Shown here: positions 3,673 through 22,179 of the stretch, piece by piece
How positions within the stretch are numbered: position 1 is the first letter of the stretch
Layout: each line of letters starts with the position of its first letter
NCBI RefSeq assembly: GCF_001425165.1
Contig: NZ_LMDU01000017.1
Span: forward strand, 95,154-159,153
Direction of reading: 5' to 3'
DNA: 64,000 bases
Source of the DNA: Pelomonas sp. Root405
GTDB taxonomy: Bacteria > Pseudomonadota > Gammaproteobacteria > Burkholderiales > Burkholderiaceae_C
Position numbers and translations under genes: made by a program
The notes under the pieces: generated by a model
Told to the model about the DNA's origin: nothing
What the model saw: the letters and a program-made list of their open reading frames with translations, nothing else
Database searches by the model: none

Positions 3673-5236
3673 GGGCGAAGCCTTCCTCAGCCGGGAGTTG
3701 ATGGGTGCGCGGCAGTTCTCGCGCGTGCGGCACGATGGCATCGAGCACGCGGGCCGACGACAGCACGCCGGGCAGGCCGGCGCCGGGATGCGTGCCGGCG
3801 CCGACGAGGTAGAGGCGCTCCACCTCCTCGCTGCGGTTGTGGGGCCGGAACCAGGCGCTTTGCGTCAGTACCGGCTCCATCGCGAAGGCGGCGCCCTTGT
3901 AGGCATTGAGCCGGTCCTGAAAGTCCTGCGGCGTCAGCATCAGCGAGCTGACGACCTCGTCCTCCAGCCCCGGCAGCAGCGTCTCGGACAGGCGCTTGGC
4001 GATGGCCGCGCGGTAGGGCTCAGCGCGCTCGCGCCAGTCCACGCCGGCGTCGAGGTGAGGCACCGGGGCCAGCACGTAGAACGCGTCGCAGCCGGGCGGG
4101 GCCAGGCTCGCGTCCGTCGCGGTGGGGCGGTGCAGGTAGAGGCTGAAGTCGGCGGCGAGGTGCTTCTTCGTGAAGATGTCGTCGAGCAGGCCCTCGTAGC
4201 GGGGCCCGAGCGAAATGGTGTGATGGGCCACATCCGGGTATTGCCGCTTGGTTCCGAAGTACCAGACGAACAGGCTCATCGAATACCGCGCTTTGGCGAT
4301 GCGGTTGTCCGTCCAGCGACGCCGGTAGCGCCCGGGCAGCAGGTGCTTGTAGGTCCAGGCCGCATCAGCGTTGGACACCACCACGTCGGCCGCCAGCCGC
4401 TGGCCGCCGGCCAGCTTCACGCCGCAGGCCGCGCCGTTCTCGACCAGTATTTCATCTACCGACTGGCCACACAGCACCCGTCCGCCCTGCCCTTCGATCA
4501 GCCCGACGAGACCGCGCACCAGGCTGCCGGTGCCGCCCATCGCGAAGTGCACGCCGAAGCGCCGCTCCAGGAAGGCGATCAGGCAATAGACGGACGTCGT
4601 GGAGAACGGGTTGCCGCCCACCAACAGCGACTGGAACGTCAGCACCACGCGCAGCTTCTCGTCCCGCACGTGCTTGCAAGCCAGGCCGTAGACGGTGCGG
4701 AAGCCCTCCAGCTTCAGCAGGTCGGGCAGCACCTTGGCCATGCTCGTCCAGCTTTCGAAGGACACGTGGCCGAGCTGCTCGAAGCCCACCTTGTAGATCG
4801 CTTCGCTGGCCGCCAGGAAGCGCTCGTAGCCGGCTACGTCGCCGGGCGCCAGCCTGGCCACTTCGGCGCGCATGGCCTCGGCGTCCCCGCTGTAGTCGAA
4901 GCTCGCGCCGTCGTAAAAGCGCACGCGGTAGAACGGCGCCACGGGGCGCAGGTCGACGTCGTCGGCCAGCTTCTTTCCGCACAGCGCCCACAGCTCCTCG
5001 AACAGGAAGGGTGCGGTGATGACGGTGGGACCGGCGTCGAAGGTGAAGCCGTCCTGTTTATGCACGTAGGCGCGGCCCCCGGGGGCATCGAGCTTTTCCA
5101 GCACGCTCACCCGGTAGCCCCGCGCGCCGAGGCGCACCGCCGCCGCCAGGCCGCCGAAGCCGCTACCAATGACCAGCGCGTGCGGGCGCAGGTCGCCTGC
5201 GGCGGCGTGCGAAAGCGACTGGCCATGTGTCAACAT
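3656..5236 (-). CDS. crtI: phytoene desaturase CrtI
   Basis: This 526-aa FAD-dependent desaturase starts with a dinucleotide-binding motif (LVIGSGFGGLAAAVRLGARG, about residues 21-40) and ends with the CrtI-type signature LYLVGAGTHPGAGLPGVLSS. It converts phytoene to neurosporene and/or lycopene; in Rubrivivax one CrtI is known to give both products and so feed both the spheroidene and spirilloxanthin branches. Product range cannot be read from sequence. It is the first gene of the leftward crtI-crtB-hemA-small membrane protein-BLUF unit. A sigma70-like promoter overlapped by a PpsR site ends only 7 nt before this ATG, and no Shine-Dalgarno sequence fits, so the mRNA may be leaderless. Confidence 0.96.
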   Translation of the reverse strand: MLTHGQSLSHAAAGDLRPHALVIGSGFGGLAAAVRLGARGYRVSVLEKLDAPGGRAYVHKQDGFTFDAGPTVITAPFLFEELWALCGKKLADDVDLRPVAPFYRVRFYDGASFDYSGDAEAMRAEVARLAPGDVAGYERFLAASEAIYKVGFEQLGHVSFESWTSMAKVLPDLLKLEGFRTVYGLACKHVRDEKLRVVLTFQSLLVGGNPFSTTSVYCLIAFLERRFGVHFAMGGTGSLVRGLVGLIEGQGGRVLCGQSVDEILVENGAACGVKLAGGQRLAADVVVSNADAAWTYKHLLPGRYRRRWTDNRIAKARYSMSLFVWYFGTKRQYPDVAHHTISLGPRYEGLLDDIFTKKHLAADFSLYLHRPTATDASLAPPGCDAFYVLAPVPHLDAGVDWRERAEPYRAAIAKRLSETLLPGLEDEVVSSLMLTPQDFQDRLNAYKGAAFAMEPVLTQSAWFRPHNRSEEVERLYLVGAGTHPGAGLPGVLSSARVLDAIVPHARELPRTHQLPAEEGFAHVRPA

Positions 5237-5243
5237 GAGCCGG

Positions 5244-5272
5244 ATACTACGAGTGTCTAGTTTTGTTTACAA
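5244..5272 (-). promoter_or_regulatory. crtI operon promoter, sigma70-like
   Basis: Reading leftwards: -35 TTGTAA (5272-5267), a 17-nt spacer, -10 TAGTAT (5249-5244), then 7 nt (CCGGCTC) and the crtI ATG. The PpsR palindrome covers most of the -35 and spacer, the geometry expected for repression by occlusion. The expected start of transcription falls on or next to the crtI ATG. Inferred from sequence only. Confidence 0.65.
5254..5271. promoter_or_regulatory. PpsR/CrtJ binding site between crtI and bchO
   Basis: This is a perfect TGT-N12-ACA palindrome (TGT 5254-5256, ACA 5269-5271), the established CrtJ/PpsR operator. It lies between the divergent crtI and bchO starts. Its first 17 bases, TGTCTAGTTTTGTTTAC, recur exactly upstream of bchF at 20296-20312, including the non-conserved centre. 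Confidence 0.85.
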
Positions 5273-5283
5273 CCGGGTTTAGG

Positions 5284-6183
5284 ATGAGTCGCGATAGCGC
5301 ACTGCCTTTGGAGCTGCAGGCCGGCGGATTGCGCTGGCGGCTGCTGCGCATGGGCAATGAGGGGCCGGGGCTGCTGCTGCTTCACGGCACAGGCTCGTCG
5401 CTGCAGTCTTGGCGCGCCTGCCTGCCCGGGCTGGCGGCGCACTTCAGCCTGCTGGTGCCCGACCTGCCCGGCCACGGCGGCAGCGAGGCCTTTGCCGACC
5501 GCCAGGCCAGCCTGCCGCGCATGGCCGCTGCAGTCGGCGACCTGCTCACCGCGCTGGACTGGCAACCCACGCTGGTGGCCGGGCATTCGGCTGGCGCGGC
5601 GGTGATGGTGCAGATGAACCTGGACGGCCGCCTGCCGCAAGCGCGCGGCCTGCTGGCTGTCAACGGCGCACTGAAGCCGCTGCCCGGCCTGATGGGCCTG
5701 GTGGCGCCGGCCGTGGCCAAGCTCGCATCACGCAGCGCCTGGCTGCCCGCCTGGGTGAGCCGCCACGCCGGCCAGCCCCGGGCACTGACCAACCTGATCG
5801 CCTCCACCGGCTCGCGCCTGGACGACGCCGGCGTGCAGCACTATCGCGAGCTGCTGAAGCAGCCCGAACATCTGCGCGGCGTGCTGGACATGCTGGCGAG
5901 CTGGCAGCTGGATGATCTGCAGGCCCGCCTGGCCGAACTGCACACGCCGCTGTGGCTGGCGGCCGGCCTGGCCGACCGCACGGTGGCGCCGGTGCAGGCA
6001 CTGGAGCTGGCTCGGTGGCTGCCGGGGGCGAGCTTTCATCCGCTGCCGGAGCTGGGGCATCTGGCGCATGAGGAGGCGCCGGAGCGGATCAATGCGTTGC
6101 TGTTGGCGTTGCGGGAAGCGACCTGCGATGCGCGTGAGGGGACTGTCAGTGCAGTTCTGCCGCGGCCCCGCAGCACCTCTTGA
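5284..6183 (+). CDS. bchO: BchO, alpha/beta hydrolase associated with Mg-chelatase
   Basis: This 299-aa alpha/beta-hydrolase fold protein has an oxyanion-side HGTGSS motif, the nucleophile elbow GHSAG, an acid residue in LADRTVAP and the His in ELGHLAHEEAP. BchO proteins accompany BchI/BchD in phototrophs; the exact role in Mg insertion is unproven. The ATG at 5284 is used because an upstream in-frame TTG lies inside the PpsR site. Normally bchO follows bchD in a bchIDO operon. Here it is on the opposite strand, about 3 kb from bchD, and shares a control region with crtI. The last 20 or so residues (ATCDAREGTVSAVLPRPRSTS) run over the end of a broken antisense gene, so the C-terminus may be altered by the rearrangement. 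Confidence 0.9.
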   Translation: MSRDSALPLELQAGGLRWRLLRMGNEGPGLLLLHGTGSSLQSWRACLPGLAAHFSLLVPDLPGHGGSEAFADRQASLPRMAAAVGDLLTALDWQPTLVAGHSAGAAVMVQMNLDGRLPQARGLLAVNGALKPLPGLMGLVAPAVAKLASRSAWLPAWVSRHAGQPRALTNLIASTGSRLDDAGVQHYRELLKQPEHLRGVLDMLASWQLDDLQARLAELHTPLWLAAGLADRTVAPVQALELARWLPGASFHPLPELGHLAHEEAPERINALLLALREATCDAREGTVSAVLPRPRSTS

Positions 6184-6650
6184 ACTTCTGGCCGCTGCCG
6201 CAGGGGCGCGGCTCGGTGCGGCCGACCTTGGTGCTGATGCGCGGTGCCGGCTCGCGCTCAAGAACCGCTTGCCCCAACAGCAGCCAGAACCCGTGGATGC
6301 TCAGCAGGCTCTCCTCGACCTGCTCCGCCAGCGCCGCGCGTTGCACGGCGGTGCGGCTCAGCTCATCCTGGTCGGGTGAGAAATCGACTTCGCCCAGCAA
6401 GCCGATAGGCCGGTACCAACCCCGGCGGTCAGGGTGATCGAATAGCGCCTGCCAAGCCGCAGTGCTAAGGCTCACGGCATCGGTGAAGCCAAAGGTCCAG
6501 GCTTCTGCATCCTCAAATTCCTCATCGATAGCCGTAGAGCATCTCCAGCGTCATGTTCTCTTCGGCATCCAGCTCCAGCAGGAACATGTCCAGCTGTTCA
6601 AGCTCCTCCTTCGACAGCGGCTTCATCATGTCTTGCATGCCGGGCTGCAT
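6146..6650 (-). pseudogene. UPF0149 (YgfB/YecA-like) protein with SEC-C tail, broken by deletion and frameshift
   Basis: The N-terminal piece (ATG at 6650, stop at 6522-6524) reads MKPLSKEELEQLDMFLLELD...ENMTLEMLYGYR and ends where the family consensus (ML-DG-F/Y-L) goes on. The C-terminal piece continues at once in another frame (DEEFEDAEAWTFGFTDAV...) and ends in a SEC-C zinc motif, EPRPCGSGQKFKRCCG, in which the usual first Cys is Arg. The middle of the UPF0149 domain, roughly 60 residues, is missing at the junction near 6520. The gene begins 15 nt after the stop of the small unknown gene upstream. Its end overlaps the bchO end by 38 nt on the opposite strand. It is part of the island between bchO and bchD. 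Confidence 0.75.
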
Positions 6651-6665
6651 CGCGGGGTGCTCGAT

Positions 6666-6968
6666 CTACGACAGCCGGCGCAATAGCTCGGGCTCGTCGG
6701 TCACGGAAGCGTGAACCCCACCTTCCGCCTCGGTCGCCTCGAACGCCGCAGCCAAGGCGGCGGTGTCGGTCTCGAAGTGGTCGCTCCACACGGTGGACGT
6801 GCCGATCTCTTCTTCAATCTCCAGAATCCATGGCTCCCCCGCGCCACGGTAGATCTCGATGAGCAGCGTGTGCCCCTCGGCGCTATCGGTCTGAGACAGC
6901 GATGAGTAGATGAGTTCGATGCCCTCGCCGGCATGGATCTGCTCGGCGAGCTTGGCCAATGTCGACAT
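6666..6968 (-). CDS. hypothetical acidic 100-aa protein
   Basis: Small soluble acidic protein with no signal peptide or membrane span. It is rich in Glu, Thr and Ala, with a beta-like centre (TLLIEIYRGAGEPWILEIEEEI) and an acidic helix (FETDTAALAAAFEATEAEGG). No family was recognised. It lies between hipA and the broken UPF0149/SEC-C gene on the same strand and reads into the latter with a 15-nt gap, so the two probably formed a unit. No strong ribosome site is visible upstream of the ATG. The coding-like composition makes it likely real. Confidence 0.55.
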   Translation of the reverse strand: MSTLAKLAEQIHAGEGIELIYSSLSQTDSAEGHTLLIEIYRGAGEPWILEIEEEIGTSTVWSDHFETDTAALAAAFEATEAEGGVHASVTDEPELLRRLS

Positions 6969-7074
6969 GGGCGACTCATCGAGCAGCGTGCCTGCCCTCG
7001 ATGCGCGCTACAGGTTTGGCGACGCCGTGGGGCTCCGGCTAGCCTGGCGCGGGTCCATGCCCGACGCCAGCGCG

Positions 7075-8328
7075 CTACCTGGAGAGGCCCGGCGTTTTGC
7101 TGGCGATGAACTCGGCGCGCTGCGCCTTCAGATTCGGGCCATCGATGTATTGGGTCATCTGGTCCAAATCGCGTTTGCTTACGCCGAGCCCCCGGAAGAA
7201 CTCCTTCCATCCATCCACAGCGACTGCCACGCCCGTGACAGTCTCCACCGCCACGTCCTTGGTGAGCCCAAATGCTTGCGCCTCTGACAACGCATTTTCG
7301 ATCGACGCATCGGCTTGGTCCTTGCCAACCCTGAGCTGCTGTTGACCAAGTCCCTGAACCGACGGCACCACGTCATAGGCCGGGGACAGGTCGTAGAACC
7401 CGTCTGCCGCGCGCACAAAGGCGTGGTTCTTTTCATGGTCATCCGTGTTGTCCATCAGGATGTTGAAAACCATGCGGCTGAACAACTCCTTCTGTTGCCC
7501 GCGAATGGCCTGCGCTCGGCCGATCCGACGCAGGCTTTGCGCGAGTTCGGGGTAGCCCATGGGCAGGCCGTTGGCACGCAACACGGTGTTAGCCGAAATC
7601 ACATGCGAGCGTGTATCACCGGAGCGATCGAACCGCCTCACTGCGATCGCGTGCCCGCGTGCCAAGGCAAGGGCGCGCGTCTGCGCAACGTTCAGCCCGC
7701 ACTGGCTGGCCAGGCGCATGGTGGCGTGCTCGACAAGCTCCGTGTTGAAGTCCTCTCCTTCGGAGAACTTCACGACCCACTGCGCGCCTTCCATCTCGAT
7801 CAAGGACTTGGGCCGAGCGCCGCCAAACGACGGGCCGGGCTTGACCAAGCGCACCAACCGCTCGTCCACCTTCTCGTCGGCCAGGACCGCAGCAACCGCA
7901 CGCTGCATGTCGTCGAGGTTCGCCAAGCTGGCGATGGCACCCCCGCTGCTGGGCCGATAGCCGCCGGCATCTGTCGACACACCCAGCGCGCCGAAGCGGT
8001 CATCGCCCGCAAAGTAGAGGTACTCCAGCACCGACAGCCGTGAGGGTTTGTAGAGGTTGCGAATCACACGCTCGCCCCAGCGATCCGGGCGCGCATCGTC
8101 AACGGCGCCGGCAGCCATGTCTCGCTCCTTGGGCACGTAGACGCCGCGGCCCAAGGGCAGGTCTTCGCTGAGGGGGAAGCCGTACCGCAGCCAGTCGGCC
8201 GAATACTCCAGGCCGACTTTGCGGTTGCCCTCGGTCAGGAATATCTGGCCGACGCTTCGCGGCGACGCCGGCCCGTCACCAAGCCACCACAGGCTCATGG
8301 TGTCTTGCGGCTTGTAGGCGCTATTCAC
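7075..8328 (-). CDS. hipA: HipA-type serine/threonine kinase toxin
   Basis: This protein of about 417 aa has the HipA fold: an N-terminal beta domain (GQIFLTEGNRKVGLEYSADW), the glycine-loop region GGARPKSLIE where HipA kinases are autophosphorylated, the catalytic NTDDHEKNHAF and the metal-binding YDLSPAYDVVPS. HipA toxins phosphorylate translation factors (GltX in E. coli) to induce dormancy; the substrate here is unknown. The GTG at 8328 is chosen because GGGGAG lies 7-8 nt upstream and the frame overlaps the hipB stop by 8 nt; an ATG at 8298 lacks a ribosome site. All kinase motifs are intact, so the toxin looks active. Base composition is visibly less GC-rich than the neighbouring bch genes, which fits acquisition by transfer. 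Confidence 0.9.
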   Translation of the reverse strand: MNSAYKPQDTMSLWWLGDGPASPRSVGQIFLTEGNRKVGLEYSADWLRYGFPLSEDLPLGRGVYVPKERDMAAGAVDDARPDRWGERVIRNLYKPSRLSVLEYLYFAGDDRFGALGVSTDAGGYRPSSGGAIASLANLDDMQRAVAAVLADEKVDERLVRLVKPGPSFGGARPKSLIEMEGAQWVVKFSEGEDFNTELVEHATMRLASQCGLNVAQTRALALARGHAIAVRRFDRSGDTRSHVISANTVLRANGLPMGYPELAQSLRRIGRAQAIRGQQKELFSRMVFNILMDNTDDHEKNHAFVRAADGFYDLSPAYDVVPSVQGLGQQQLRVGKDQADASIENALSEAQAFGLTKDVAVETVTGVAVAVDGWKEFFRGLGVSKRDLDQMTQYIDGPNLKAQRAEFIASKTPGLSR

Positions 8329-8647
8329 GGCGTCGGCTCCCCTTCTTCTCAATGGCCAGGATCTCCTGCGCCAAAGCCTGGGCGTCGTGCTCTGGCGCCG
8401 CCAGATCCCGCAGCGCGCCATCTCGGCCGAGCAGCCACAAAGCGGTGGCATACACGCCCATACTGACGCGTGGATCGCCTTTCTCCATTGCAGCCAAGGT
8501 CGGAACGGAGACATCCATCCGCAAGGCCCAAGCGCGGAGCGACTCCTTCCGTCGCTTTCGGCCGAGCCGCAGATGGCCTCCAAGGACTTCTAAGGAGATC
8601 TGTACAGGACCGGGCAGGCTCGCTACTGAAAAGGCGGCTTTAGGCAT
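8321..8647 (-). CDS. hipB: HipB-like XRE-family antitoxin and repressor
   Basis: This 108-aa protein has an XRE helix-turn-helix at about residues 24-70 (LGGHLRLGRKRRKESLRAWA, then MDVSVPTLAAMEKGDPRVSM) and a charged C-terminal tail. HipB antitoxins bind HipA and repress their own operon. It precedes hipA with an 8-nt overlap, as expected of a hipBA pair. A sigma70-like promoter ends 6 nt before the ATG and no Shine-Dalgarno sequence is visible, so the mRNA may be leaderless. An inverted repeat CACAA-N10-TTGTG lies inside the promoter spacer as a candidate operator. Confidence 0.85.
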   Translation of the reverse strand: MPKAAFSVASLPGPVQISLEVLGGHLRLGRKRRKESLRAWALRMDVSVPTLAAMEKGDPRVSMGVYATALWLLGRDGALRDLAAPEHDAQALAQEILAIEKKGSRRRE

Positions 8648-8653
8648 TAATCA

Positions 8654-8682
8654 AGATTACACAAGAAGCCTATTTTGTGCAA
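8654..8682 (-). promoter_or_regulatory. hipBA promoter with candidate operator
   Basis: Reading leftwards: -35 TTGCAC (8682-8677), a 17-nt spacer, -10 TAATCT (8659-8654), then 6 nt to the hipB ATG. The inverted repeat CACAA (8660-8664) / TTGTG (8675-8679) fills the spacer, where a HipB-type repressor would block polymerase. The stretch is markedly AT-rich against its surroundings. Confidence 0.6.
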
Positions 8683-8699
8683 TTTTGGTTTTACAAACT

Positions 8700-8913
8700 G
8701 CAATGCCACCGAATGCCAGAAAGGACAGCAGGTCTGCAGCCTGCACAACCGCCTGGCCGACACCATCTTGAGCTGACTCCGCTGGACTCCGAGTCGAGGC
8801 ACGAGCTCGCTCGACGTGATGGCAGAGACGGTCAGCCGGCCGGCGTTGTCGTTGAATTTGCCCGTCACTTGATGACAGAGATGGCGGAGTTCGTGTCGCG
8901 GGTACTTCAACAT
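8700..8913 (-). pseudogene. vapC: vapC PIN-domain toxin remnant
   Basis: Starting at the ATG at 8913, 13 nt after the old vapB stop, the first codons read MLKY; the next frame gives RDTNSAISVIK (family: LDTN-x-V-I-Y-V-I-K), and the first frame then resumes with FNDNAGRLTVSAITSSELVPRLGVQRS (family: F-N-x-N-A-G-x-L-x-I-S-x-I-T-L-S-E-L). The start therefore carries a frameshift pair or small indels, and the C-terminal half with the remaining PIN acidic residues is unrecognisable. The left boundary is approximate. It is a dead toxin beside a nonsense-mutated vapB. Confidence 0.6.
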
Positions 8914-8926
8914 CGCGGCACAGCCG

Positions 8927-9160
8927 TCAGAGCGCCTCGTGATTCGGCTGCTGCTGGTCGGCGCGCGTCGCCATGAAATCATCCGAGGCGCGGCGACCGT
9001 TCTTGAAGAACTCGTATTAGCTGTGGCGCACCGGCGAAATGATGAGTTCGAGGCCTCGGGCGTGCACCTGCACCTTCTTGACGCCGTCAGTCAGCGGCGC
9101 GTCCGCCGGCAAGCGCACAGCGTGGGAGCCGTTGTTGGTGAAGACGGTGGTGATGCTCAT
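8927..9160 (-). pseudogene. vapB: vapB antitoxin with in-frame stop codon
   Basis: The ATG at 9160 has an AAGGA ribosome site. The frame reads MSITTVFTNNGSHAVRLPAD...VKKVQVHARGLELIISPVRHS, then TAA at 9017-9019, then in the same frame YEFFKNGRRASDDFMATRADQQQPNHEAL and a natural stop at 8927-8929. The VapB family has a Trp-Asp pair where the TAA now stands, so this is a 77-codon AbrB/MazE-fold antitoxin truncated by a nonsense mutation. The N-terminal DNA-binding half could still be made. Confidence 0.8.
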
Positions 9161-9212
9161 GGGCCATCCTTGAAGGGACATGACGGAAATACATGGCGCT
9201 GCCACCCGACCG

Positions 9213-10982
9213 TTAAACCGCTACCGCCACCGCCACCGCGGCATAAACATCCACCGCCTGCCCCTGCGGCAACGGCACATAGCGCGCCGCCATCGCCTGA
9301 GCCAGCGCCATCGCGGCGGGCTGGGGGCGGGGGGACGTGTCGATGAGCACGCTGGCCAGGCCAGCCGCGCGCAGGCGACGGGCGGCGGCCAGCGCATCCT
9401 GCATGGCGGCGCCCCGGCCGGGGCTGCCGTCGCGGGCGATGTTGGCGCGGGCGTCGGTGAGGAAGACGAGCACGGCCCGGCCGCCTTCGCGCGACTGCAG
9501 ACTGCTGCCGAGCAGCCATGCGGCTTCGATGCCCGCTGCCAAGGGCGTACCGCCGCCACCCGGCAGGCCCGAGAGCGAACGCCGTGCGTGGACCAGCGAG
9601 CGGGTGGGCGGCAGCAACACCTCGGCGCCATCGCCGCGAAAGGCGATCAACGCCACGCGGTCGCGCCGCACGTAGCAGTCGGCCAGCAGCAGTTCCACCG
9701 CGCCCTTGGCCTCGGCCAGGCGGTTGAGCGCCTGGGAGCCGGAGGCGTCGACGACGAAGACGGTGGTCGTCTCGTCGGGGCGGCGGTAGCGCTTGATGTG
9801 GAAATCGTCGCGACACAGCAGCAGGCGGGCCGGCGCCGGGCCGAGGCCTCGCTGCTCCCGCTCCAACAGACGGAGGCGCTGCCAGGGGATGGCGGCGCGC
9901 ATCGTGGCGAGCAGGTCCAACCGGGCGCTGGCGCGCAGGCTGCCGCGACGCGAGGCCAGCGGCCGGCCGCTTTGCGCCGGGCGGGCGGCGGCACCGCGCC
10001 GGCCGGCGCCTGCGCCGCCTTGGGTGGACGTGCCGGCCAGGCTGTCCAGCAAGCCGGGCGGAATGGCGGCCTGGGTGGCGGCGATCATCTGCTCTTGCAC
10101 CGCCTTGGCCTGCTGCGCCCCGGCGCTCGGGTCGGGCGGTGGCGCGTCGCCAGATTCGGCCTCGGGCTGTGGCTCCAGCGGGTTCAGCTCGGGCGGCGCG
10201 GACGACTCAGGTTCGGGTGCAGACTCGTCTTCCGCCGACGACTGCGGCAAGGCGCGCGCACGCGGCGCCAGCACCAGCCGCGCGGCCAGTTCGGCATCGG
10301 CCTGCGTCACTTCATCTCGCCCCGCGATGGCCGCCGACGCGCAAGCCGCGCGCCAGGCCTGCCACGGCGCGCGCAGCGACCGCAAACCCAACGCGGCGGC
10401 CGTGCCGCAAAGCGCCTGCACGGTGGCGTCGTCGTAAGGGATGCGGGCCAGCCGCTGCCGCGCTTCGACCAGATCAAACGGCAAGCCCTGACCCTCGCCC
10501 AGCCGGTCGAAGCCCGCCGCAAGGTCGGGCGCTGCGGGGCTCGCGATCAACGCCAGCCGCTCCAGCAGACTATGCGGCAACTGCTCCTCGGCCGACTGGC
10601 CTTCGTCCAGCGCCACGACGCAGAAGCGGGACGAGCCCTGTTCCAACGCGGACGCGAGCTTGGCCGCCAGCCCGGCATCGACGCGCTCCGCCATGGGCAG
10701 CACCAGCACGCCGCCAGCGGCCTCGGCCAGCAAGCCGGCCTGCGCCACGGGCCGGCCGGCGGCCAGGCTCAGGCCGAGGTCAAGGCCGCCGAGCAGGCGT
10801 TCATCGTCGACCTGCAGCGGCAGGCGGCGCCAGGGGGTATCGGCAGGCAGCGCAAGGCGCAAGGTGGCCAGCAGCGCGTCGCGCGCCGGGCCGGCCGGGC
10901 CGCGCAGGCACAGGCCGCCCAGGCCCGCTGGGTCGACCGCCAGCAACCATGTGGCCTGGGTGGCGGGGTCGGCGGCGGTCAT
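9213..10982 (-). CDS. bchD: magnesium chelatase subunit D (BchD)
   Basis: This 589-aa protein has three parts: a degenerate AAA+ N-terminal half, a Pro/Glu-rich linker at about residues 240-310 (EDESAPEPESSAPPELNPLE), and a von Willebrand A domain with the MIDAS motif FVVDASGSQAL at about residue 410. With BchI it forms the ATPase ring that drives BchH to insert Mg into protoporphyrin IX. It is the last gene of the leftward bchG superoperon. An unusual repeat-encoded tail (AVAVAVAV) ends the protein. A 17-bp inverted repeat lies in the gap between bchI and bchD. The usual next gene, bchO, is missing from this strand and the toxin-antitoxin island follows instead. Confidence 0.95.
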   Translation of the reverse strand: MTAADPATQATWLLAVDPAGLGGLCLRGPAGPARDALLATLRLALPADTPWRRLPLQVDDERLLGGLDLGLSLAAGRPVAQAGLLAEAAGGVLVLPMAERVDAGLAAKLASALEQGSSRFCVVALDEGQSAEEQLPHSLLERLALIASPAAPDLAAGFDRLGEGQGLPFDLVEARQRLARIPYDDATVQALCGTAAALGLRSLRAPWQAWRAACASAAIAGRDEVTQADAELAARLVLAPRARALPQSSAEDESAPEPESSAPPELNPLEPQPEAESGDAPPPDPSAGAQQAKAVQEQMIAATQAAIPPGLLDSLAGTSTQGGAGAGRRGAAARPAQSGRPLASRRGSLRASARLDLLATMRAAIPWQRLRLLEREQRGLGPAPARLLLCRDDFHIKRYRRPDETTTVFVVDASGSQALNRLAEAKGAVELLLADCYVRRDRVALIAFRGDGAEVLLPPTRSLVHARRSLSGLPGGGGTPLAAGIEAAWLLGSSLQSREGGRAVLVFLTDARANIARDGSPGRGAAMQDALAAARRLRAAGLASVLIDTSPRPQPAAMALAQAMAARYVPLPQGQAVDVYAAVAVAVAV

Positions 10983-10996
10983 GCAGCGTGGCCGGG

Positions 10997-11077
10997 GTAG
11001 GTTGGGGTGAGCCTTGCGAACCCCAACTTCGAGCGATGCAGTCGGCGTCGGAGTTCGCGGGGCTCACCCCAACCTAC
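10997..11077. repeat. REP-like palindrome between bchI and bchD
   Basis: A perfect 17-bp inverted repeat, GTAGGTTGGGGTGAGCC at 10997-11013 against its complement at 11061-11077, encloses a second pairing (GCGAAC 11016-11021 / GTTCGC 11053-11058). The outer arm resembles the widespread GTAGGTTGGG...GAACCCAAC type of bacterial REP element. It fills nearly all of the 109-bp bchI-bchD gap, so any polycistronic mRNA carries a large hairpin there. It has no T-tract, so it is not a simple terminator; it could stabilise the bchI 3' end. Confidence 0.85.
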
Positions 11078-11091
11078 GAACCCATGCGCTT

Positions 11092-12111: not shown

Positions 12112-12118
12112 CGCAGTC

Positions 12119-13408: not shown

Positions 13409-13428
13409 GCGGCGATGCTGTCAGCCAC

Positions 13429-13731: not shown

Positions 13732-14039
13732 GGTGTTGGCTTTCCTTGCCCGGTGGGCGGGATGGCTGAAAAGACGTCAGGGTGGCGTCGGCGTGCCAGC
13801 AGGTCCAGCAGATGGGACAGGCCGGCGGCGGTCAGGCAGAGCACGATCAAGGCGCTCGCTGAACCCACAAGGCTCAGACGCAGCGCCAGGGTCAGGCTCA
13901 GCCCGGCGAGCAGATTGGGCGCCAGATTCGCCAGCCCCGTAGGACGTCGCAGGCAAAGCCAGAGCAATTCGATCAGGCTGACCGCCAGCACCAGGTCCAC
14001 CAGGTACAGCAGCAGTTGGGCGTCGATCAGGTCGGCCAT
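13728..14039 (-). CDS. 103-aa multi-span membrane protein between bchP and HiPIP
   Basis: Start at the ATG sharing one base with the bchP stop (TGATG); the stop overlaps the HiPIP start (ATGA). The protein has three or four hydrophobic helices (LLLYLVDLVLAVSLIELLWL; NLLAGLSLTLALRLSLVG; ALIVLCLTAAGLSHLLDLL) and a short polar C-terminus. No family was recognised. Tight coupling to both neighbours suggests a role in HiPIP maturation, membrane docking or pigment handling; that is inference from position alone. Confidence 0.7.
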   Translation of the reverse strand: MADLIDAQLLLYLVDLVLAVSLIELLWLCLRRPTGLANLAPNLLAGLSLTLALRLSLVGSASALIVLCLTAAGLSHLLDLLARRRHPDVFSAIPPTGQGKPTP

Positions 14040-16540
14040 CACACGCGAGCCAACCCGAGCAGGTGGGCCACGTCCTTGAAGAAGATGCGCGCATGCGCCA
14101 TGGGCCGCGCGCGCACCAGGCGCTTGTGCATGTAGGCGTCGAAAGTGAGCTGCTGCACGTCGCGGTCGCGGCAGATGCTGACGAAGCGCTCGCGGCGCTT
14201 GTCGCTGCTGTACCAGAAGCGCTGCATCAGGCCGAGGATCCAGAACACCCGGCCGTGCTCACGCATGAAGCGTTTGCGGGCCAGGGCGAGCGACTTCACA
14301 TCGCCGGTCTGCAGCAGCTGCTGCACCGCCTCGGCAGCCAGGCGGCCGCCGAGCATGGCGTAGTAGATGCCCTCGCCCGACGCCGGTGCGACGACACCGG
14401 CGGCATCGCCGGCCAGCACGACGTCGCGGCCGTTGTCCCAGCGCGGCAGCGGCTTCATCGGAATGGGCGCGCCCTCGCGTCGGAGCGTTCGTGCATGTGC
14501 CAGGCCGGCAGCGGCGCGCAACTGCATCACGCCGCGGCGCAGCGAGAAGCCCTTGTCGGCGCTGCCGGTGCCGATGCTGACGCTGGCGCCATGCGGGAAC
14601 ACCCAGCCATAGAAGTCGGGCGACAGCTCGCCGCGGTAATGCACCTCGCAGCGGCTGCCAAGGTAGCCGGCTGGCGCCACGTCGGGGACGGCGACGATCT
14701 CGTGATACGCGAACACGAAGCGGCCCTGGTCTGCGCCGGGCACGCACTGCTGCGCCACCTGCGAGCGTGCGCCGTCGGCGCCGATGACGGCGCGGGCGCG
14801 CACGCTTTGCGACCCGCCGTCGGCGCTGTAGTGCAGAACGCTGATGCCGTCCGGATCGCGGGCCACGCGCTCGAAGCTGCCGGTGCGGCGCACGGCGCCA
14901 TGCGAGGCGGCGCGCTCTCTGAGCCATTCGTCGAAGTGCTCGCGGTCCACCATGCCGACGAAGCCGCCTTCGATGGGGATGTCCACCTCGACCGCGCGTG
15001 GGGAAATCATGCGCGCCGCTGTGGCGCGCGCGACCAGCATGTGCTCGGGGATGGCGAAGTCCGCTATCAACCGCGGCGGAATCGCGCCGCCGCAGGGCTT
15101 GATGCGGCCGGCGCGGTCGAGCAGCAACACGCGCAGGCCCTGCAGCGCCAGGTCATCGGCCGCCGTCGCGCCGGCAGGACCACCGCCGACGACCACCGCA
15201 TCAAAGTCCACCGGCTGGCTGAGGTTCATACCGCTCTCCCAAGTTGATGCGCGCGGACCTGGCTCAGGCTCCACGCGCGCGGCCAGGCGGGCAGCCCACA
15301 AGAACAGCGCCGCGTCGAGCAGGAAGACCAGCGCATAGGCCATGCCGGCGTCGGCCAGCAGCCAGCGCGTCAGGTCACTGGCTGCGGTGCCCAGCACACC
15401 ACCCAGCGCAAAAGCCATCGCCTGCGCCGCGCCCCACAGGCCCATGCGCACGCCCTCGTGGCCGCCTTCCGGCGCGTCACCGGCACCGGCCAGGCCCATC
15501 ATGGAACCGATGGCCGCGATGGAAAACGCACCGGTCGCCAGGCCCAGCGCAAAGACATTTGCCTGAAGCGGCCAGGTCGGGCCCACCAGGCTGGCACACA
15601 CCAGCCCGCCCAGCGCCAGCGCCGAGGCCGCACAGCCCCAGACAGTCCAACTGCGCAGCGAGCCCCACTGCCGACCCGCCCAGCGGCTGCCGGCCGCGGC
15701 GGCCAGCAGCATGCCGACCAGCGCGCCGCCATGCTGTGTGCCGGACAGCTTGGTGGTGGCGCCAGGGGTCAGGCCGAACACCAGGCCAGCGAAGGGCTCC
15801 AGGATCAGGTCCTGCATGCTGAAGGCCAGCATGGACACGAAGACGAAGATGGTGAAGCGCCGCGCGCGCGGCTCGGCCCAGGCGTCCTGCAGGGCTTGCT
15901 TGAAGGACAGGGCGACGGCTGGCTGGGGTGACGGTTGCGCCGCCCCTTCCAGGCCGATCAGCGCCAGCGCGGTCAGCAACACGGCCGACACCGCCACGCC
16001 GCCCGCGACCCACAGCAGCCGCTCGGCCGAGAACGGGTCGAGCAGGCTGCCAGCCACGCCCGCCGTCACGACGAAGCCGGCAATCATCATGATCCAGACT
16101 GTCGTGGCCGCCGCTGCGCGCCTGTCGGCCGGCGCGCGCTTGGCCAGCAACGCCAGCAGCGAGGTGCCGCTTGCGGCCACGCCTAAGCCGATCAGCGTGT
16201 AGGCCAGCACCGCCAGCGCGATGCCGCCGGCGGTGCTGCTGCCCATCCACACCGTGGCCAGCGCCGCCAGCCAGCCACCTGCGGCGAGCGTGACCATGCC
16301 GCCCATGATCCAGGGCGTGCGGCGCCGGCCCAGGTCCGAGCCATGCCCCATGCGCGGACGACTGACCTGCACGACGTAGTGCAGGGCCAGCAGCAGGCCC
16401 GGCAGCAGCGCCGGCAGCGCCATCTCCACGACCATCACGCGGTTCAACGTCGACGTGGTCAGCACGACGACGGCGCCGAGGCTGGCCTGAACGAGGCCAA
16501 GGCGAAGGATGCTGGCCCAGCCGAATGAGCTGCTGCTCAT
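14039..16540 (-). CDS. bchP: fused PucC/LhaA-family transporter and geranylgeranyl reductase BchP
   Basis: One uninterrupted 833-codon frame encodes two proteins. Residues 1 to about 420 form a 12-span MFS protein of the bacteriochlorophyll-delivery family (TLNRVMVVEMALPALLPGLL; FSMQDLILEPFAGLVFG), the counterpart of ORF428 beside bchP in Rhodobacter. After a short linker (RVEPEPGPRASTWESG), residues 438-833 are BchP, with the FAD motif VVVGGGPAGATAADDLALQG and the GGR motif DRAGRIKPCGGAIPP. BchP reduces the geranylgeranyl tail to phytyl. No stop separates them. A strong internal ribosome site precedes Met438, so free BchP may also be made. The start overlaps the bchG stop (ATGA). The homologous genes are normally separate, so this is either a true fusion or stop-codon loss. 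Confidence 0.85.
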   Translation of the reverse strand: MSSSSFGWASILRLGLVQASLGAVVVLTTSTLNRVMVVEMALPALLPGLLLALHYVVQVSRPRMGHGSDLGRRRTPWIMGGMVTLAAGGWLAALATVWMGSSTAGGIALAVLAYTLIGLGVAASGTSLLALLAKRAPADRRAAAATTVWIMMIAGFVVTAGVAGSLLDPFSAERLLWVAGGVAVSAVLLTALALIGLEGAAQPSPQPAVALSFKQALQDAWAEPRARRFTIFVFVSMLAFSMQDLILEPFAGLVFGLTPGATTKLSGTQHGGALVGMLLAAAAGSRWAGRQWGSLRSWTVWGCAASALALGGLVCASLVGPTWPLQANVFALGLATGAFSIAAIGSMMGLAGAGDAPEGGHEGVRMGLWGAAQAMAFALGGVLGTAASDLTRWLLADAGMAYALVFLLDAALFLWAARLAARVEPEPGPRASTWESGMNLSQPVDFDAVVVGGGPAGATAADDLALQGLRVLLLDRAGRIKPCGGAIPPRLIADFAIPEHMLVARATAARMISPRAVEVDIPIEGGFVGMVDREHFDEWLRERAASHGAVRRTGSFERVARDPDGISVLHYSADGGSQSVRARAVIGADGARSQVAQQCVPGADQGRFVFAYHEIVAVPDVAPAGYLGSRCEVHYRGELSPDFYGWVFPHGASVSIGTGSADKGFSLRRGVMQLRAAAGLAHARTLRREGAPIPMKPLPRWDNGRDVVLAGDAAGVVAPASGEGIYYAMLGGRLAAEAVQQLLQTGDVKSLALARKRFMREHGRVFWILGLMQRFWYSSDKRRERFVSICRDRDVQQLTFDAYMHKRLVRARPMAHARIFFKDVAHLLGLARV
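15230..15242 (-). promoter_or_regulatory. internal ribosome binding site before the BchP domain
   Basis: GGGAGAG (15240-15234) lies 4 nt before the ATG at 15229 within the fused frame, exactly where free-standing BchP proteins begin. It points to possible internal initiation of a separate 396-aa BchP. Confidence 0.55.
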
Positions 16541-17415
16541 GACACCACCCCGCGCAGCGCAAAGGCGCTCACCAGCATCCCCGACACGTACAGCGGAACG
16601 CCGGCTCCGCTGTACCAGACGGCGCGCTCCAACGGGCTGGCGACGAAGCGCTTCATCATCAGCAACTGCACACCCAGCAGGCCGACGACGGCCAGCCCGT
16701 GCCAGCCCTGCCCCCACTGCCAGAGCAGCAGGGCCACCAACACCTGAGGCGCGGCCATGACCAGGGAGGCCACCCAGGCGGCCCGCGAGGCGCCGAGCAT
16801 GACGGGCAGGGAGTCGATTCCCATCTGCCGGTCACCCTTGATGGATTTGAAGTCGTTGAGGGTCATGATGCCGTGCGCGCCCAGGCTGTAGAGCAGCGCC
16901 AGCGTCAGCGAGCGGGCATCGGGCCAGGTGCCCATGGCCATCACGGCCGCGCCGGTGATCCAGGCCAGGCCTTCGTAGCACAGGCCACAGGCGGCGTTGC
17001 CCCACCAGCCATTGCGCTTGAGGCGCAGCGGCGGCGCGCTATAGGCCCACGCCAGCAGAAGGCCGACCACGCCGGCCAGAAAGCCCGCCGTGCCGAGTTG
17101 CCAAGCCAGCAGCAACGACAGCAGCGTCCAGAGGATCGCGATGTACAGGCCCCAATGGCCAGGCATGCGGCCAGATGGGATTGGGCGCTGCGGTTCGTTT
17201 ATCGCGTCGACATGGCGGTCGAACCAATCGTTGACGGCCTGACTGGTGGCACAGACGAAAGGCCCGGCCAGCAACACACCGGCGACGATCAGCGGCCAGC
17301 GCCCTTCGACGGGCATGCCCGACGCCACGACCCCGCAGGCAAAGGCCCACATCGGCGGAAACCAGGTGATGGGCTTGAGCAGTTCGGCGACAGCCGAAAG
17401 AGCGGGGCGCTGCAT
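16537..17415 (-). CDS. bchG: bacteriochlorophyll a synthase BchG
   Basis: This 292-aa UbiA-family prenyltransferase has eight or nine membrane helices and the two Asp-rich motifs NDWFDRHVDAINEPQRPIPS (about residues 62-81) and LNDFKSIKGDRQMGIDSLP. It esterifies bacteriochlorophyllide a with geranylgeranyl diphosphate in the membrane. The family N-terminus (ELLKPITWFPPMWAF) begins only 12 residues in, so this ATG is well supported. It heads the leftward superoperon to bchD. The perfect PpsR site and a sigma70-like promoter end 7 nt before the ATG, with no room for a Shine-Dalgarno sequence. Confidence 0.96.
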   Translation of the reverse strand: MQRPALSAVAELLKPITWFPPMWAFACGVVASGMPVEGRWPLIVAGVLLAGPFVCATSQAVNDWFDRHVDAINEPQRPIPSGRMPGHWGLYIAILWTLLSLLLAWQLGTAGFLAGVVGLLLAWAYSAPPLRLKRNGWWGNAACGLCYEGLAWITGAAVMAMGTWPDARSLTLALLYSLGAHGIMTLNDFKSIKGDRQMGIDSLPVMLGASRAAWVASLVMAAPQVLVALLLWQWGQGWHGLAVVGLLGVQLLMMKRFVASPLERAVWYSGAGVPLYVSGMLVSAFALRGVVS

Positions 17416-17422
17416 GCAGCCT

Positions 17423-17450
17423 ATTCTGAGCTGACGCAGTCAAATGTCAA
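17423..17450 (-). promoter_or_regulatory. bchG superoperon promoter, sigma70-like
   Basis: Reading leftwards: consensus -35 TTGACA (17450-17445), a 16-nt spacer, -10 CAGAAT (17428-17423), then AGGCTGC and the bchG ATG. The -35 is also one half of the PpsR palindrome, which extends upstream from it. The predicted transcript start lies at or next to the start codon. Confidence 0.6.
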
Positions 17451-17462
17451 TCTAGATTTACA
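17445..17462. promoter_or_regulatory. PpsR/CrtJ binding site upstream of bchG
   Basis: Perfect TGT-N12-ACA (TGT 17445-17447, ACA 17460-17462) with a palindromic TCTAGA-type centre. It lies between the bchG start and the ppsR stop. TGTCAA on its left arm is the complement of the bchG -35 element. Confidence 0.85.
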
Positions 17463-17488
17463 CAGGCCGGAGGAACGGCCCGCTGACG

Positions 17489-18961
17489 CTACTCGGCGCC
17501 GGCCGGTCCCATGTCCTGGATGCCGTAACGACGCAGCTTCACATAGAGGCTTTGCCGCGACAGCCCGAGCATTTCGGCAGCAGAGGCCCGGTTATCGCGG
17601 GTCAGCTCCAGGGCCGCCTCGATGCACAGGCGCTCGATCAGGTCCGTCGTCTCGCCGACGATGTCCTTGAGCGGCAGGCGCCCCACCAAGCCGGTGAGCT
17701 GCTCGGCCGAGCGGGGCAGCTGACGGCTGGAACGCCCATCCGCCGGCAGGCGGCGTGCGACATCGCGGATGGAGAAACCCAGGCAGGCCTGCGGGCCGTC
17801 GGGCACGGCCACCGCCGAGATCTCGACCGCGCCCGGCTCGCCGTAGCCGTTACGCAAGGTGGTCGGGAACAGCCGCAGAACACCGTGCTGGCGCAGGTTG
17901 CCGATCAGCACATTCAGGTCCACCGAGGAGCGACCCAGCCAGCGATCCAGTGACTGGCCGACGACAGACTCGCCCACGCCCAACTGCAGCATGTCGCTGA
18001 AGGCTTGGTTGGCACTAAGGACGCGGCCTTGCATGTCGGTCAACACAAAGGCGTCAGGCATCGCGTTGACGACATCGAGCAGCGACGGCACGTTCGGCGC
18101 ATTGCTCGCAGCGGGGCCGACGATCAGCGCACCCGTGGGCGACAGGCGTACCAGCAGCGAGGTGGTGCTGTCCTGCTTGAAGACGGTTGCGGCCAGCTTC
18201 AGCTCGGTATGGCCATTGGCCAAGCGAACCAGCATGTCCGTACTGCGCCCAGCGCTGCGCGCCTGCGAAAACTTGGCGTAGGCCTCGGCCTGGCTTTCCA
18301 CGGCCAGTAGTTCGGTGAAGCTGCGACCGACGATGCGCTTGGACGAATCGCCGAGCACGCGCGCCGCCGCAGCATTGTGTTCGAACACGACGAGCGAGGT
18401 GGCGTCCAACACCAGGACGGCCTCGTCGACGGCTTCGAAGAGCAGACGGTAGCGTGCCTCGGTGTGACGCAGGCGCAGGTAGTCGCGCTCCATGGACTGC
18501 TGGGCGTCCACCAGGCGCTGCTGCACGGCAGCCACCTCGCGCAGGTCGCGGCCCAGGGCCAGCACGTGGCCCTGAACGCCCATGGGCACCATGCTGTAGC
18601 TGACTGGCAGTTCGAGGCCACCTGCCAGCGCATGGTTGACCTGGCGCTCCGGCCGCTCGCCCTGGTTCTCGGGGCTGTTGCCGGCCGTCGCCGCAGCCAG
18701 CATGGCCGTGACCTTGCCGCGGTTCTCGATGGTGACGGTTTCAGCCCAGCGCCGGCCGACCCATTGACGAAGCTCGCCGAGCTCCTTGGTGTGGCTGGTC
18801 CCCAGGGAGATGTCGCGGATCACGCCTTGGCTGTCCAGCACCAACGCCAGATCAGCGGCAGCCGCGACCACGGCGGCAAGGACGTCGGCATTCAGATCAG
18901 CAAAATAAAGCTCGGGAGCTTCAAACAGCTGATTGGTGGCCGATGTGCCAAGCTTGTGCAT
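17489..18961 (-). CDS. ppsR: PpsR/CrtJ photosynthesis regulator
   Basis: This 490-aa protein has PAS domains (about residues 25-140, 165-275 and 290-400) and a C-terminal Fis-type helix-turn-helix (DNRASAAEMLGLSRQSLYVKLRRYGI). It binds TGT-N12-ACA sites, found here upstream of crtI/bchO, bchG and bchF. PpsR of Rubrivivax is known to act both negatively and positively. Only two cysteines exist: Cys446 next to the HTH, equivalent to the redox Cys of other PpsR proteins, and Cys393 in the last PAS domain. The partner Cys between the first PAS domains in Rhodobacter is absent (SLLVRLSPTG). AGGGAG precedes the ATG. It follows ppaA by 94 bp. Confidence 0.95.
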   Translation of the reverse strand: MHKLGTSATNQLFEAPELYFADLNADVLAAVVAAAADLALVLDSQGVIRDISLGTSHTKELGELRQWVGRRWAETVTIENRGKVTAMLAAATAGNSPENQGERPERQVNHALAGGLELPVSYSMVPMGVQGHVLALGRDLREVAAVQQRLVDAQQSMERDYLRLRHTEARYRLLFEAVDEAVLVLDATSLVVFEHNAAAARVLGDSSKRIVGRSFTELLAVESQAEAYAKFSQARSAGRSTDMLVRLANGHTELKLAATVFKQDSTTSLLVRLSPTGALIVGPAASNAPNVPSLLDVVNAMPDAFVLTDMQGRVLSANQAFSDMLQLGVGESVVGQSLDRWLGRSSVDLNVLIGNLRQHGVLRLFPTTLRNGYGEPGAVEISAVAVPDGPQACLGFSIRDVARRLPADGRSSRQLPRSAEQLTGLVGRLPLKDIVGETTDLIERLCIEAALELTRDNRASAAEMLGLSRQSLYVKLRRYGIQDMGPAGAE

Positions 18962-19055
18962 CGAGCTCCCTGAGTTGCGAGAGGCAGCATCAGGGACGCC
19001 GCCGGAAGATATAGAAGACAGCCGGGACCGCTGGGGCGATGCATTTCAGCACCAG

Positions 19056-20060
19056 TCAGGCTGGCCTGACGCTGCTGACGCCGGCGTTTGCGGCTTCGAC
19101 CGCGCTGCAGGCTTCGCTGGCCATGGCGTCGGCACCGCAGAGCGCTGCCAGATTCGCCAATTCGCCGGCCATCGGTCCGCCGACCATCACAAAAAGATCG
19201 CGATTAGCTGACGCTTCTCGCATGTCAAGAATAGCAGACGCTACGTGAGGAATGCTGTCCCCCGTGGCGATGGACAGTCCGAACATGTCGAACCAGTTGC
19301 CGGTCAGCCGGCTCCGCAAATCTGTCCAGTCGGCCTTGGGTTCGCATTCGACGTCCCAGCCGGCCCGGCTGAAGAACTCCGCCGCCATGACCACACCGAA
19401 GGTGTGTTGCGCGCCCGGCACAGCGGCCAGCAGGGCGCGATGGCTGTCGGCATCGGGCCGGGCCACCTGGTTGAATCGGCTGCCCTGCTCGTGCAGGACC
19501 CTCTGCAGACGCCACAGGCCGATGGTGACCTGCGAGAAATCGTAGCGATCCTCTTCCCACATCTCACCCATCCAGCGCGCGCAGGGCGCCAGCAGGTCCA
19601 GGAAGACCTGCTCCTGCGACGCGCCGGCATCCAGCAGCGCCCGCACATAGCTGCTTGCGCTGTCAGCATCGCCTTCGGCGGCCAGTCGCGCCAACGTGTG
19701 CACATGCTCCGTCGTCAAGGTGAGCGGCGGCAGCGGCGGGCGGTCCTGCAGGGGCTGCGCGCTGTGCATCAACATCAGGCGCGGGATGATCTCCAGCTCG
19801 ACGATGCGTGAGAGCTGCATGTCCTGTGATGTGTTGCTCGCCACCAGATGCGGTGAAGTGAGGCGCGGCCTTTCGCCGTCGTCGAGCGGCGCCAGCCGAC
19901 CTGACAACTCGGCGCTTTTAAGTGCCAGCATCTCTGCCAGCGTCAAGGGGTCGGCCTGAATCGGCAACTGACCCCTGGCTGCACCGCGGGAAGCCGCGGC
20001 CATGGCACGCGGCGCTTGCTGGCGCTTGGCCAGCCTGTTGATCGTCCATCCAGCCACCAC
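19056..20060 (-). CDS. ppaA: PpaA/AerR, cobalamin-binding-type regulator of PpsR
   Basis: This protein of about 334 aa has a helical cap with the B12-cap motif MGEMWEEDRYDFSQVTIGLWRLQ cut at about residues 164-186, then a flavodoxin-like cobalamin-binding domain (SCHIC type) with His219 in GAQHTFG, the position of the cobalt ligand in AerR. AerR/PpaA proteins modulate CrtJ/PpsR in response to light through adenosylcobalamin. The usual start is one of two adjacent GTG codons (20060 or 20057) behind GAGGAG. Shorter isoforms from internal starts, known for AerR, are possible. It sits directly upstream of ppsR on the same strand. Confidence 0.9.
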   Translation of the reverse strand: MVAGWTINRLAKRQQAPRAMAAASRGAARGQLPIQADPLTLAEMLALKSAELSGRLAPLDDGERPRLTSPHLVASNTSQDMQLSRIVELEIIPRLMLMHSAQPLQDRPPLPPLTLTTEHVHTLARLAAEGDADSASSYVRALLDAGASQEQVFLDLLAPCARWMGEMWEEDRYDFSQVTIGLWRLQRVLHEQGSRFNQVARPDADSHRALLAAVPGAQHTFGVVMAAEFFSRAGWDVECEPKADWTDLRSRLTGNWFDMFGLSIATGDSIPHVASAILDMREASANRDLFVMVGGPMAGELANLAALCGADAMASEACSAVEAANAGVSSVRPA

Positions 20061-20295
20061 GGTCTCCTCGTGGGCTGGTTGGCAGCAAGGGTTCCATTTG
20101 AGCGGCCGGAATCGTCTGTTCCAGTCCTCGGCGCTGGGTGGCGTCAGAAATCGCTACTGCTAACCGTTTTGTTCGTTGATCTGTTCTTGTTGATGACTGC
20201 GGCGTCGCGCGCCAACGGGGGCTGACAGGCGGCTGAGGCAATGTCGAGGATGCCGCCGACTTGCGTCAAGCTGATTTTCCCGATTTCTGGTTATT
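20061..20295. other. intergenic control region between ppaA and bchF
   Basis: Non-coding stretch between the divergent ppaA and bchF. Its right end holds the bchF control sites. In the remainder only a modest AT-rich patch (about 20155-20195) could be a ppaA promoter; no clear -35/-10 pair, Fnr site (TTGAT-N4-ATCAA) or terminator was found. Confidence 0.4.
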
Positions 20296-20329
20296 TGTCT
20301 AGTTTTGTTTACGTCAATTCTAATTGACA
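20296..20329. promoter_or_regulatory. two overlapping PpsR sites upstream of bchF
   Basis: Site 1 is TGT-N12-ACG (20296-20313); site 2 is CGT-N12-ACA (20312-20329). Each misses one base of the consensus, and they share the two bases CG. Site 2 is otherwise a strong palindrome, GTCAATT-CT-AATTGAC. Two adjacent sites are expected to allow cooperative PpsR binding, as known for CrtJ. Confidence 0.75.
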
Positions 20330-20352
20330 GTCGGCTGCCGCAGGCCTAGATT
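20324..20352 (+). promoter_or_regulatory. bchF superoperon promoter, sigma70-like
   Basis: Consensus -35 TTGACA (20324-20329), a 17-nt spacer, -10 TAGATT (20347-20352), then CGGCTCC and the ATG at 20360. The -35 forms the right arm of PpsR site 2. The gap from -10 to ATG is again 7 nt. Confidence 0.65.
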
Positions 20353-20359
20353 CGGCTCC

Positions 20360-22179
<1,820 letters not shown>

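Follow-up and report, generated by a model that had tools for sequence, protein, structure and literature searches.

Predicted leaderless mRNAs at the heads of three PpsR-type photosynthesis operons in Pelomonas sp. Root405

Introduction

In Rubrivivax gelatinosus the regulator PpsR footprints crtI, and deletion of ppsR derepresses this gene; according to the authors the elements of the crtI promoter had not been determined, and leader length is not discussed in the available part of the paper (PMC4452267). Here we describe crtI, bchG and bchF, the first genes of three operons with PpsR-type operators, in a 64-kb stretch of the 5.8-Mb genome of Pelomonas sp. Root405 (C17:95154-159153; hereafter the window) that contains photosynthesis genes. 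All three are very probably leaderless, their mRNAs being predicted to begin at the ATG.

Burkholderia cenocepacia and Cupriavidus metallidurans belong, like the organism studied here, to the order Burkholderiales. Comparable to the modules described below, a TA-rich promoter motif is found directly upstream of leaderless genes in B. cenocepacia (PMC4603805), and in C. metallidurans 4.67% of the primary transcription start sites (TSSs) are leaderless (PMC7563307). In both species the leaderless cases are enriched in transcriptional regulators, whereas photosynthesis genes, the subject of this study, are not mentioned in the available parts of these papers (PMC4603805, PMC7563307). Regulators are in fact the best known leaderless genes of proteobacteria (PMC3017554, PMC4603805). 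A more specific counterpart is the repressor-controlled acuR-acuI-dddL operon of Rhodobacter sphaeroides, in which the mRNA of the first gene starts exactly at the AUG, as mapped by rapid amplification of cDNA ends (RACE), with no convincing Shine-Dalgarno (SD) sequence and with an ATG that is conserved in homologues (PMC3017554, as far as available). It differs from our case in being a single operon for acrylate catabolism under control of the TetR-family protein AcuR, whereas the window holds three PpsR-type photosynthesis operons whose leaderless state we infer from sequence.

Among the matches listed from the open-licence literature, with subscription papers mostly outside, we recognised no report of leaderless photosynthesis mRNAs. 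The available parts of four Rhodobacter TSS papers (PMC6199135, PMC6238624, PMC7471390, PMC5362033) give no start point for bchG; PMC7471390 names GSE150944, a published R. sphaeroides TSS set.

Results

Ahead of each of the three genes the original prediction had read a promoter whose -10 hexamer ends 7 nt before the ATG. The promoter strings are exactly as it gave them, and the distance is 7 nt in all three: TTGTAA-N17-TAGTAT-N7-ATG for crtI (minus strand, 5272-5234), TTGACA-N16-CAGAAT-N7-ATG for bchG (minus strand, 17450-17413) and TTGACA-N17-TAGATT-N7-ATG for bchF (plus strand, 20324-20362). With 17 bp (crtI), 16 bp (bchG) and 17 bp (bchF), the hexamers are spaced within the 16-18 bp of σ70-type promoters. 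The elements of the modules are the following.

5267..5272, minus strand: -35 of crtI, TTGTAA, overlapping the left PpsR half-site
5244..5249, minus strand: -10 of crtI, TAGTAT
5234..5236, minus strand: ATG of crtI and predicted mRNA 5' end, 7 nt past the -10
17445..17450, minus strand: -35 of bchG, TTGACA, exact string
17423..17428, minus strand: -10 of bchG, CAGAAT, exact string
17413..17415, minus strand: ATG of bchG and predicted mRNA 5' end
20324..20329, plus strand: -35 of bchF, TTGACA
20347..20352, plus strand: -10 of bchF, TAGATT, exact string
20360..20362, plus strand: ATG of bchF and predicted mRNA 5' end, 7 nt past the -10

When the -10 of a σ70-type promoter ends 6-8 nt before an ATG, initiation falls on or beside the A of this codon, and for this reason a leaderless mRNA is the natural reading of the geometry. 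As had been claimed, no SD sequence fits between promoter and gene, since a -10 ending 7 nt from the ATG leaves no room for it.

Such sites are rare. On approximate σ70 weights the promoters of crtI, bchG and bchF score 13.8, 13.5 and 16.3, respectively, and they are three of just seven sites scoring at least 11 on both strands of the window. For background, all 18 contigs of this genome were sampled in 20 other stretches, which total 378,636 nt and contain 266 long open reading frames (ORFs). No site scoring at least 12.5 was located there 6-7 nt before an in-frame start of a long ORF, and only two sites scoring at least 11 were, one preceding an ATG and the other a GTG.

Within the genus, a protein search recovered BchF from 7 of 20 genomes; with PF07284 it was detected in 63 of 399 genomes at family level and in 49 of 399 at order level, and each of these figures includes the own genome. 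The comparison set comprised 80 phototroph genomes, 68 of the family (own included) and 12 from other families of the order; 33 further genomes of the order with BchF lie outside it. In this set bchG was found in all 80 genomes and crtI in 76. Each ortholog was assigned its best promoter within 260 nt and the first in-frame ATG, GTG or TTG lying at least 3 nt past the -10 of that promoter. Thus scored were 80 bchF, 79 bchG (that of genome G502 lies at a contig end) and 76 crtI genes.

The distance between -10 and start codon is best conserved in bchG, where the first start lies at 6 nt in 29, at 7 nt in 32 and at 8 nt in six orthologs (67/79), all of them ATG; when any start at 5-8 nt is allowed, this close-ATG class of bchG grows to 71. 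In crtI the first start is an ATG at 6 nt in 23 and at 7 nt in nine orthologs (32/76). The sequence TTGTCA/TTGTAA-N17-TANNAT is present in 31 of the 32 crtI genes of this class and, conversely, 31 of the 32 crtI genes with a TTGTCA/TTGTAA promoter start at 6-7 nt, the exception being G652 at 10 nt. Among the other 44 crtI orthologs, 31 have no site scoring at least 11 within 260 nt; the first start lies at 4 nt in one, at 10 nt in two and at 67-69 nt in five. The bchF genes are split. Although TTGACA followed by a 17-nt spacer is found in 80/80 orthologs, the first start is at 6 nt in 16 and at 7 nt in 25 (41/80, every one ATG); a TTG at 5 nt in G083 was judged false, and the remaining 38 genes start mostly at 28-40 nt (25 genes), the others at 8-27 nt (seven) or further away (six). 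Conservation of the distance, on which the original prediction had staked its case, thus stands for bchG and for crtI with that promoter, and for bchF it stands in part only (41/80 at 6-7 nt versus 25/80 at 28-40 nt). When the 60 nt preceding the ATG are shuffled, 1.4, 1.7 and 1.0 starts are expected at 6-8 nt for bchF, bchG and crtI, versus 41, 73 and 31 observed. All three genes belong to the close-ATG class in 24 genomes.

The near starts are ATG in 41/42 bchF (the exception being G083), 71/71 bchG and 32/32 crtI genes of this class. The base preceding the ATG is C in 39/42 bchF and 54/71 bchG but in just 16/32 crtI genes. An SD-like match of at least 4 nt precedes a start at a distance of at least 20 nt in 27 of the 38 bchF genes that fall outside the class. 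The gap between -10 and ATG had been said to hold a common GGCT; this motif was rejected, as it occurs in only 4/42 bchF, 8/71 bchG and 1/32 crtI genes of the close-ATG class (window included).

Taken together, the exact strings, the rarity of such sites and their conservation relative to the shuffled control make leaderless transcription of the three genes very likely. The original prediction of leaderless first genes is therefore supported by geometry, ATG starts and conservation, with bchF following it in 41 of 80 genomes.

A PpsR half-site lies on the -35 of each of the three promoters, as the original prediction had it. The operators are listed below, together with a half-site within crtI.

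5254..5271: exact PpsR palindrome TGT-N12-ACA, between crtI and a divergent bchO-like gene
17445..17462: exact PpsR palindrome TGT-N12-ACA of bchG, with its ACA half in the -35
20296..20329: two PpsR-like sites of bchF, each one base off, TGT-N12-ACG (20296-20313) and CGT-N12-ACA (20312-20329), with two bases shared
5228..5233, minus strand: TTGACA, codons 2-3 of crtI, putative PpsR right half-site in the coding sequence

In the close-ATG class, an exact palindrome with one half on the -35 is present in 3/41 bchF, 49/71 bchG and 30/32 crtI genes; when up to one mismatch is allowed, the numbers are 41, 71 and 31, a loose count that is helped by the ACA contained in TTGACA. The crtI promoter resembles that of R. 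gelatinosus, where two TGT-N12-ACA-like sites 8 bp apart are bound by PpsR (PMC4452267, available part). Codons 2 and 3 of crtI are TTG and ACA in 26/32 and 24/32 orthologs of the class, respectively, and in the remainder of the crtI gene of the window TTG is used for 1/60 leucines and ACA for 0/21 threonines. This TTGACA is thus probably a PpsR operator half-site within the gene. We also considered whether a full second palindrome spans the crtI start (in the window ATC-N12-ACA, following the first at 8 bp) and rejected this: conservation is confined to its right half, TTGACA, and the gap between -10 and ATG is 6 nt in 23/32 relatives of the class, which alters the spacing, so that our claim is limited to a half-site. 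For the bchO-like gene divergent from crtI, no promoter-like site scoring at least 11 was found on its own strand (5237-5283, plus strand).

Beyond this set we examined 80 named loci, several of which duplicate genomes of the 80-genome set. In 24 of the 80 the first bchF start is an ATG at 6-7 nt, and none of these 24 is titled an alpha- or gammaproteobacterium. The bchG layout is more widespread: an ATG at 5-8 nt is found in 49 of the 64 scorable named loci, including some titled Methylocystis, Rhodoblastus, Rhizobium, Hyphomonadaceae, Sphingomonas, Luminiphilus and Halieaceae, and it is missing in 15, among them five Chromatiaceae and L056 with a GTG. Thirty more loci from outside the order (26 genomes of the phylum and four plasmids) yielded a bchG ATG at 6-7 nt in 16, including a Chromatiaceae plasmid (L315), a GTG in one, and 13 negatives as judged by the top site. 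Promoter scores in these wider loci can be as low as about 9, which makes single bchG cases weaker.

A variant bchG module, with TTGCCG or TTGCCC as -35, a TA-type -10 and an ATG at 6-7 nt, is present in L285, L289, L291, L294, L300 and L316. In L289, L291, L294 and L300, as well as in L283, L284, L286 and L287, bchG begins ATGAGTGT, with TGT in codons 2-3, possibly a further case of an operator half within a coding sequence.

Pfam domains agree with the gene names (Amino_oxidase for the crtI-like gene, UbiA for bchG, BCHF for bchF); names beyond these domains are our own assignment. By BchF, the nearest named relatives carry Burkholderiales titles, e.g. Burkholderiales bacterium PBB2 and Paucibacter sp. 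PLA-PC-4. The coding sequences concerned are as follows.

3656..5236, minus strand: crtI (ORF list and Pfam)
16537..17415, minus strand: bchG (Pfam)
17489..18961, minus strand: ppsR-like regulator (Pfam PAS, PAS, HTH_8)
20360..20899, plus strand: bchF (Pfam)

The expectation that downstream genes are coupled by overlap was borne out: bchF overlaps bchN (20896-20899) and bchG overlaps an lhaA-like gene by ATGA each, and a crtB start is possible 17 nt inside crtI. Divergent genes stand before crtI and before bchF in the window. Between bchG and bchF lie ppsR (PAS/PAS/HTH_8), which is co-directional with bchG and 73 nt upstream of it, and a B12-binding gene (ppaA/aerR-like). The annotation of NZ_CP140001 and NC_015741 also places ppsR immediately before chlG; that of two other stretches viewed does not.

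Two features of the neighbourhood are reported as side observations. A single open frame of 892 amino acids (14039-16717, minus strand) combines PucC/LhaA-like and BchP-like domains with no stop between them; in four plasmid records these are separate annotated genes. A HipA-like ORF (PF07804, PF13657; 7075-8583, minus strand) is located near crtI/bchO, and hip genes are also named beside the Roseateles photosynthesis cluster in the available part of PMC10037100.

Discussion

Building on the observed sequences, positions, conservation and ATG starts, we propose a model for promoter usage, transcription start, binding of PpsR to these sites and mode of translation. Each operon head would be a compact module that unites start codon, housekeeping-type promoter and PpsR operator in about 60 bp. 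From its contacts with TTGACA or TTGTAA and with the -10, RNA polymerase would start transcription on the A of the ATG or no more than one or two bases away, so that crtI, bchG and bchF would be translated from a 5'-terminal AUG and the downstream genes would start by overlap. PpsR may block transcription by occupying the -35, because its half-site TTGACA is identical to the -35 consensus. At crtI, operator and gene would even overlap owing to the further half-site in codons 2-3.

Several observations weigh against leaderless transcription of these genes. The weights behind the promoter scores are approximate E. coli-type values, and the -10 of bchG (CAGAAT) is weak. Near starts other than ATG occur in some of the other loci (bchG: GTG in L056 and L296; bchF: GTG and TTG, both at 7 nt, in L103 and L068). 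The 39 of 80 bchF orthologs outside the class with an ATG at 6-7 nt imply that leaderlessness is not essential for this gene, and the bchF of G283 is a doubtful case because the near-identical G732 lacks the near ATG. Folding is weak over the initial 40 nt of the mRNA (-6 to -8 kcal/mol, compared with -13 to -14 kcal/mol inside the genes), but leadered bchF behaves alike at its start; weak folding was thus rejected as proof of leaderlessness. Finally, a second promoter-like site precedes bchF in the window (-10 TCTAAT at 20319, score 12.4), which would give a leader of about 28 nt, and transcripts of ppsR, located 73 nt upstream, could extend into bchG as well.

From the last two points one may argue that the main transcripts begin further upstream, with the close promoter being minor or unused. 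We consider this improbable: a site scoring at least 11 in the upstream stretch of bchF is present in only 6 of 42 relatives (window included), compared with the TTGACA and 17-nt spacer in all 80, and in the window the genes before crtI and before bchF are divergently oriented. Moreover, 12 of the 80 genomes carry bchG and crtI in divergent orientation and therefore have no read-through into bchG from an upstream gene, and 11 of these 12 were scored as members of the close-ATG class; read-through from ppsR is thus unlikely as a general source of bchG mRNA. It is hardly to be expected that the near ATG is a false start and that ribosomes use an internal codon preceded by a normal leader, even though an in-frame ATG follows 42 nt further on in the bchF of the window and the G283/G732 pair illustrates that a near ATG can be incidental. 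In 43/71 bchG, 23/42 bchF and 18/32 crtI genes, no other in-frame start past codon 2 precedes the conserved block, which makes the ATG of bchG secure in those 43, to which the sole in-frame start of the window's bchG belongs. In addition, many bchG orthologs are alike from residue 3 of their N-termini, and all near starts in the 80 genomes except that of G083 are ATG.

A different question is which σ factor reads bchF. In Roseateles depolymerans lacking SP70, an RpoH-family σ factor, expression of most genes of the photosynthesis cluster fell, with the exception of crt genes, ppaA, ppsR and some bch genes; bchF appears in a table row that we take to list the fallen genes (PMC10037100, available part). 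A C immediately precedes the -10 in 70/80 bchF genes (position 20346 in the window), versus 33/71 bchG and 10/32 crtI, and may mark use by an RpoH-family factor. However, the authors of that study report no known RpoH-type promoter sequences in the Roseateles cluster (PMC10037100), the -35 and -10 of bchF match σ70 well, and the effect of SP70 may be indirect. Recognition of bchF by this factor instead of σ70 is therefore rather unlikely; it would overlap with the explanation preferred here, as the leaderless geometry would be identical.

The leaderless reading of all three head genes raises the question of its history. On a quick BchF+BchG tree with flagged long branches, the bchF state changes between leaderless and leadered at least 10 times (27 with shuffled labels), and well-supported branches force only two changes. 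On these figures a single clade for leaderless bchF was rejected. Tentatively, leaderless bchG might be an old trait shared across alpha-, beta- and gammaproteobacterial clusters, which crtI and bchF joined in the Burkholderiales, with bchF switching around a fixed operator-promoter core. Entry into pigment synthesis might then depend on 5'-AUG (70S-type) initiation, for example under starvation or stress, when free 70S ribosomes are abundant. This tie of photosynthesis expression to 70S initiation, which the original prediction had also drawn, is put forward as a hypothesis. In acuR-acuI-dddL, translation of the leaderless gene is lower than that of the genes downstream (PMC3017554, available part); by analogy, a less translated head gene could be the outcome instead of 70S coupling. 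In mycobacteria, leader status was reported to have no systematic effect on protein per mRNA (PMC7148126, available part).

Our analysis suggests that the head genes of central pigment operons are leaderless and that this layout has been retained across many genera. bchF may be regarded as a natural experiment in which an identical -35 and spacer, present in 80/80 orthologs, is followed by either no leader or a longer one. PpsR-controlled promoters thereby gain exact predicted start points, and the start codons of their first genes are marked as trustworthy for annotation.

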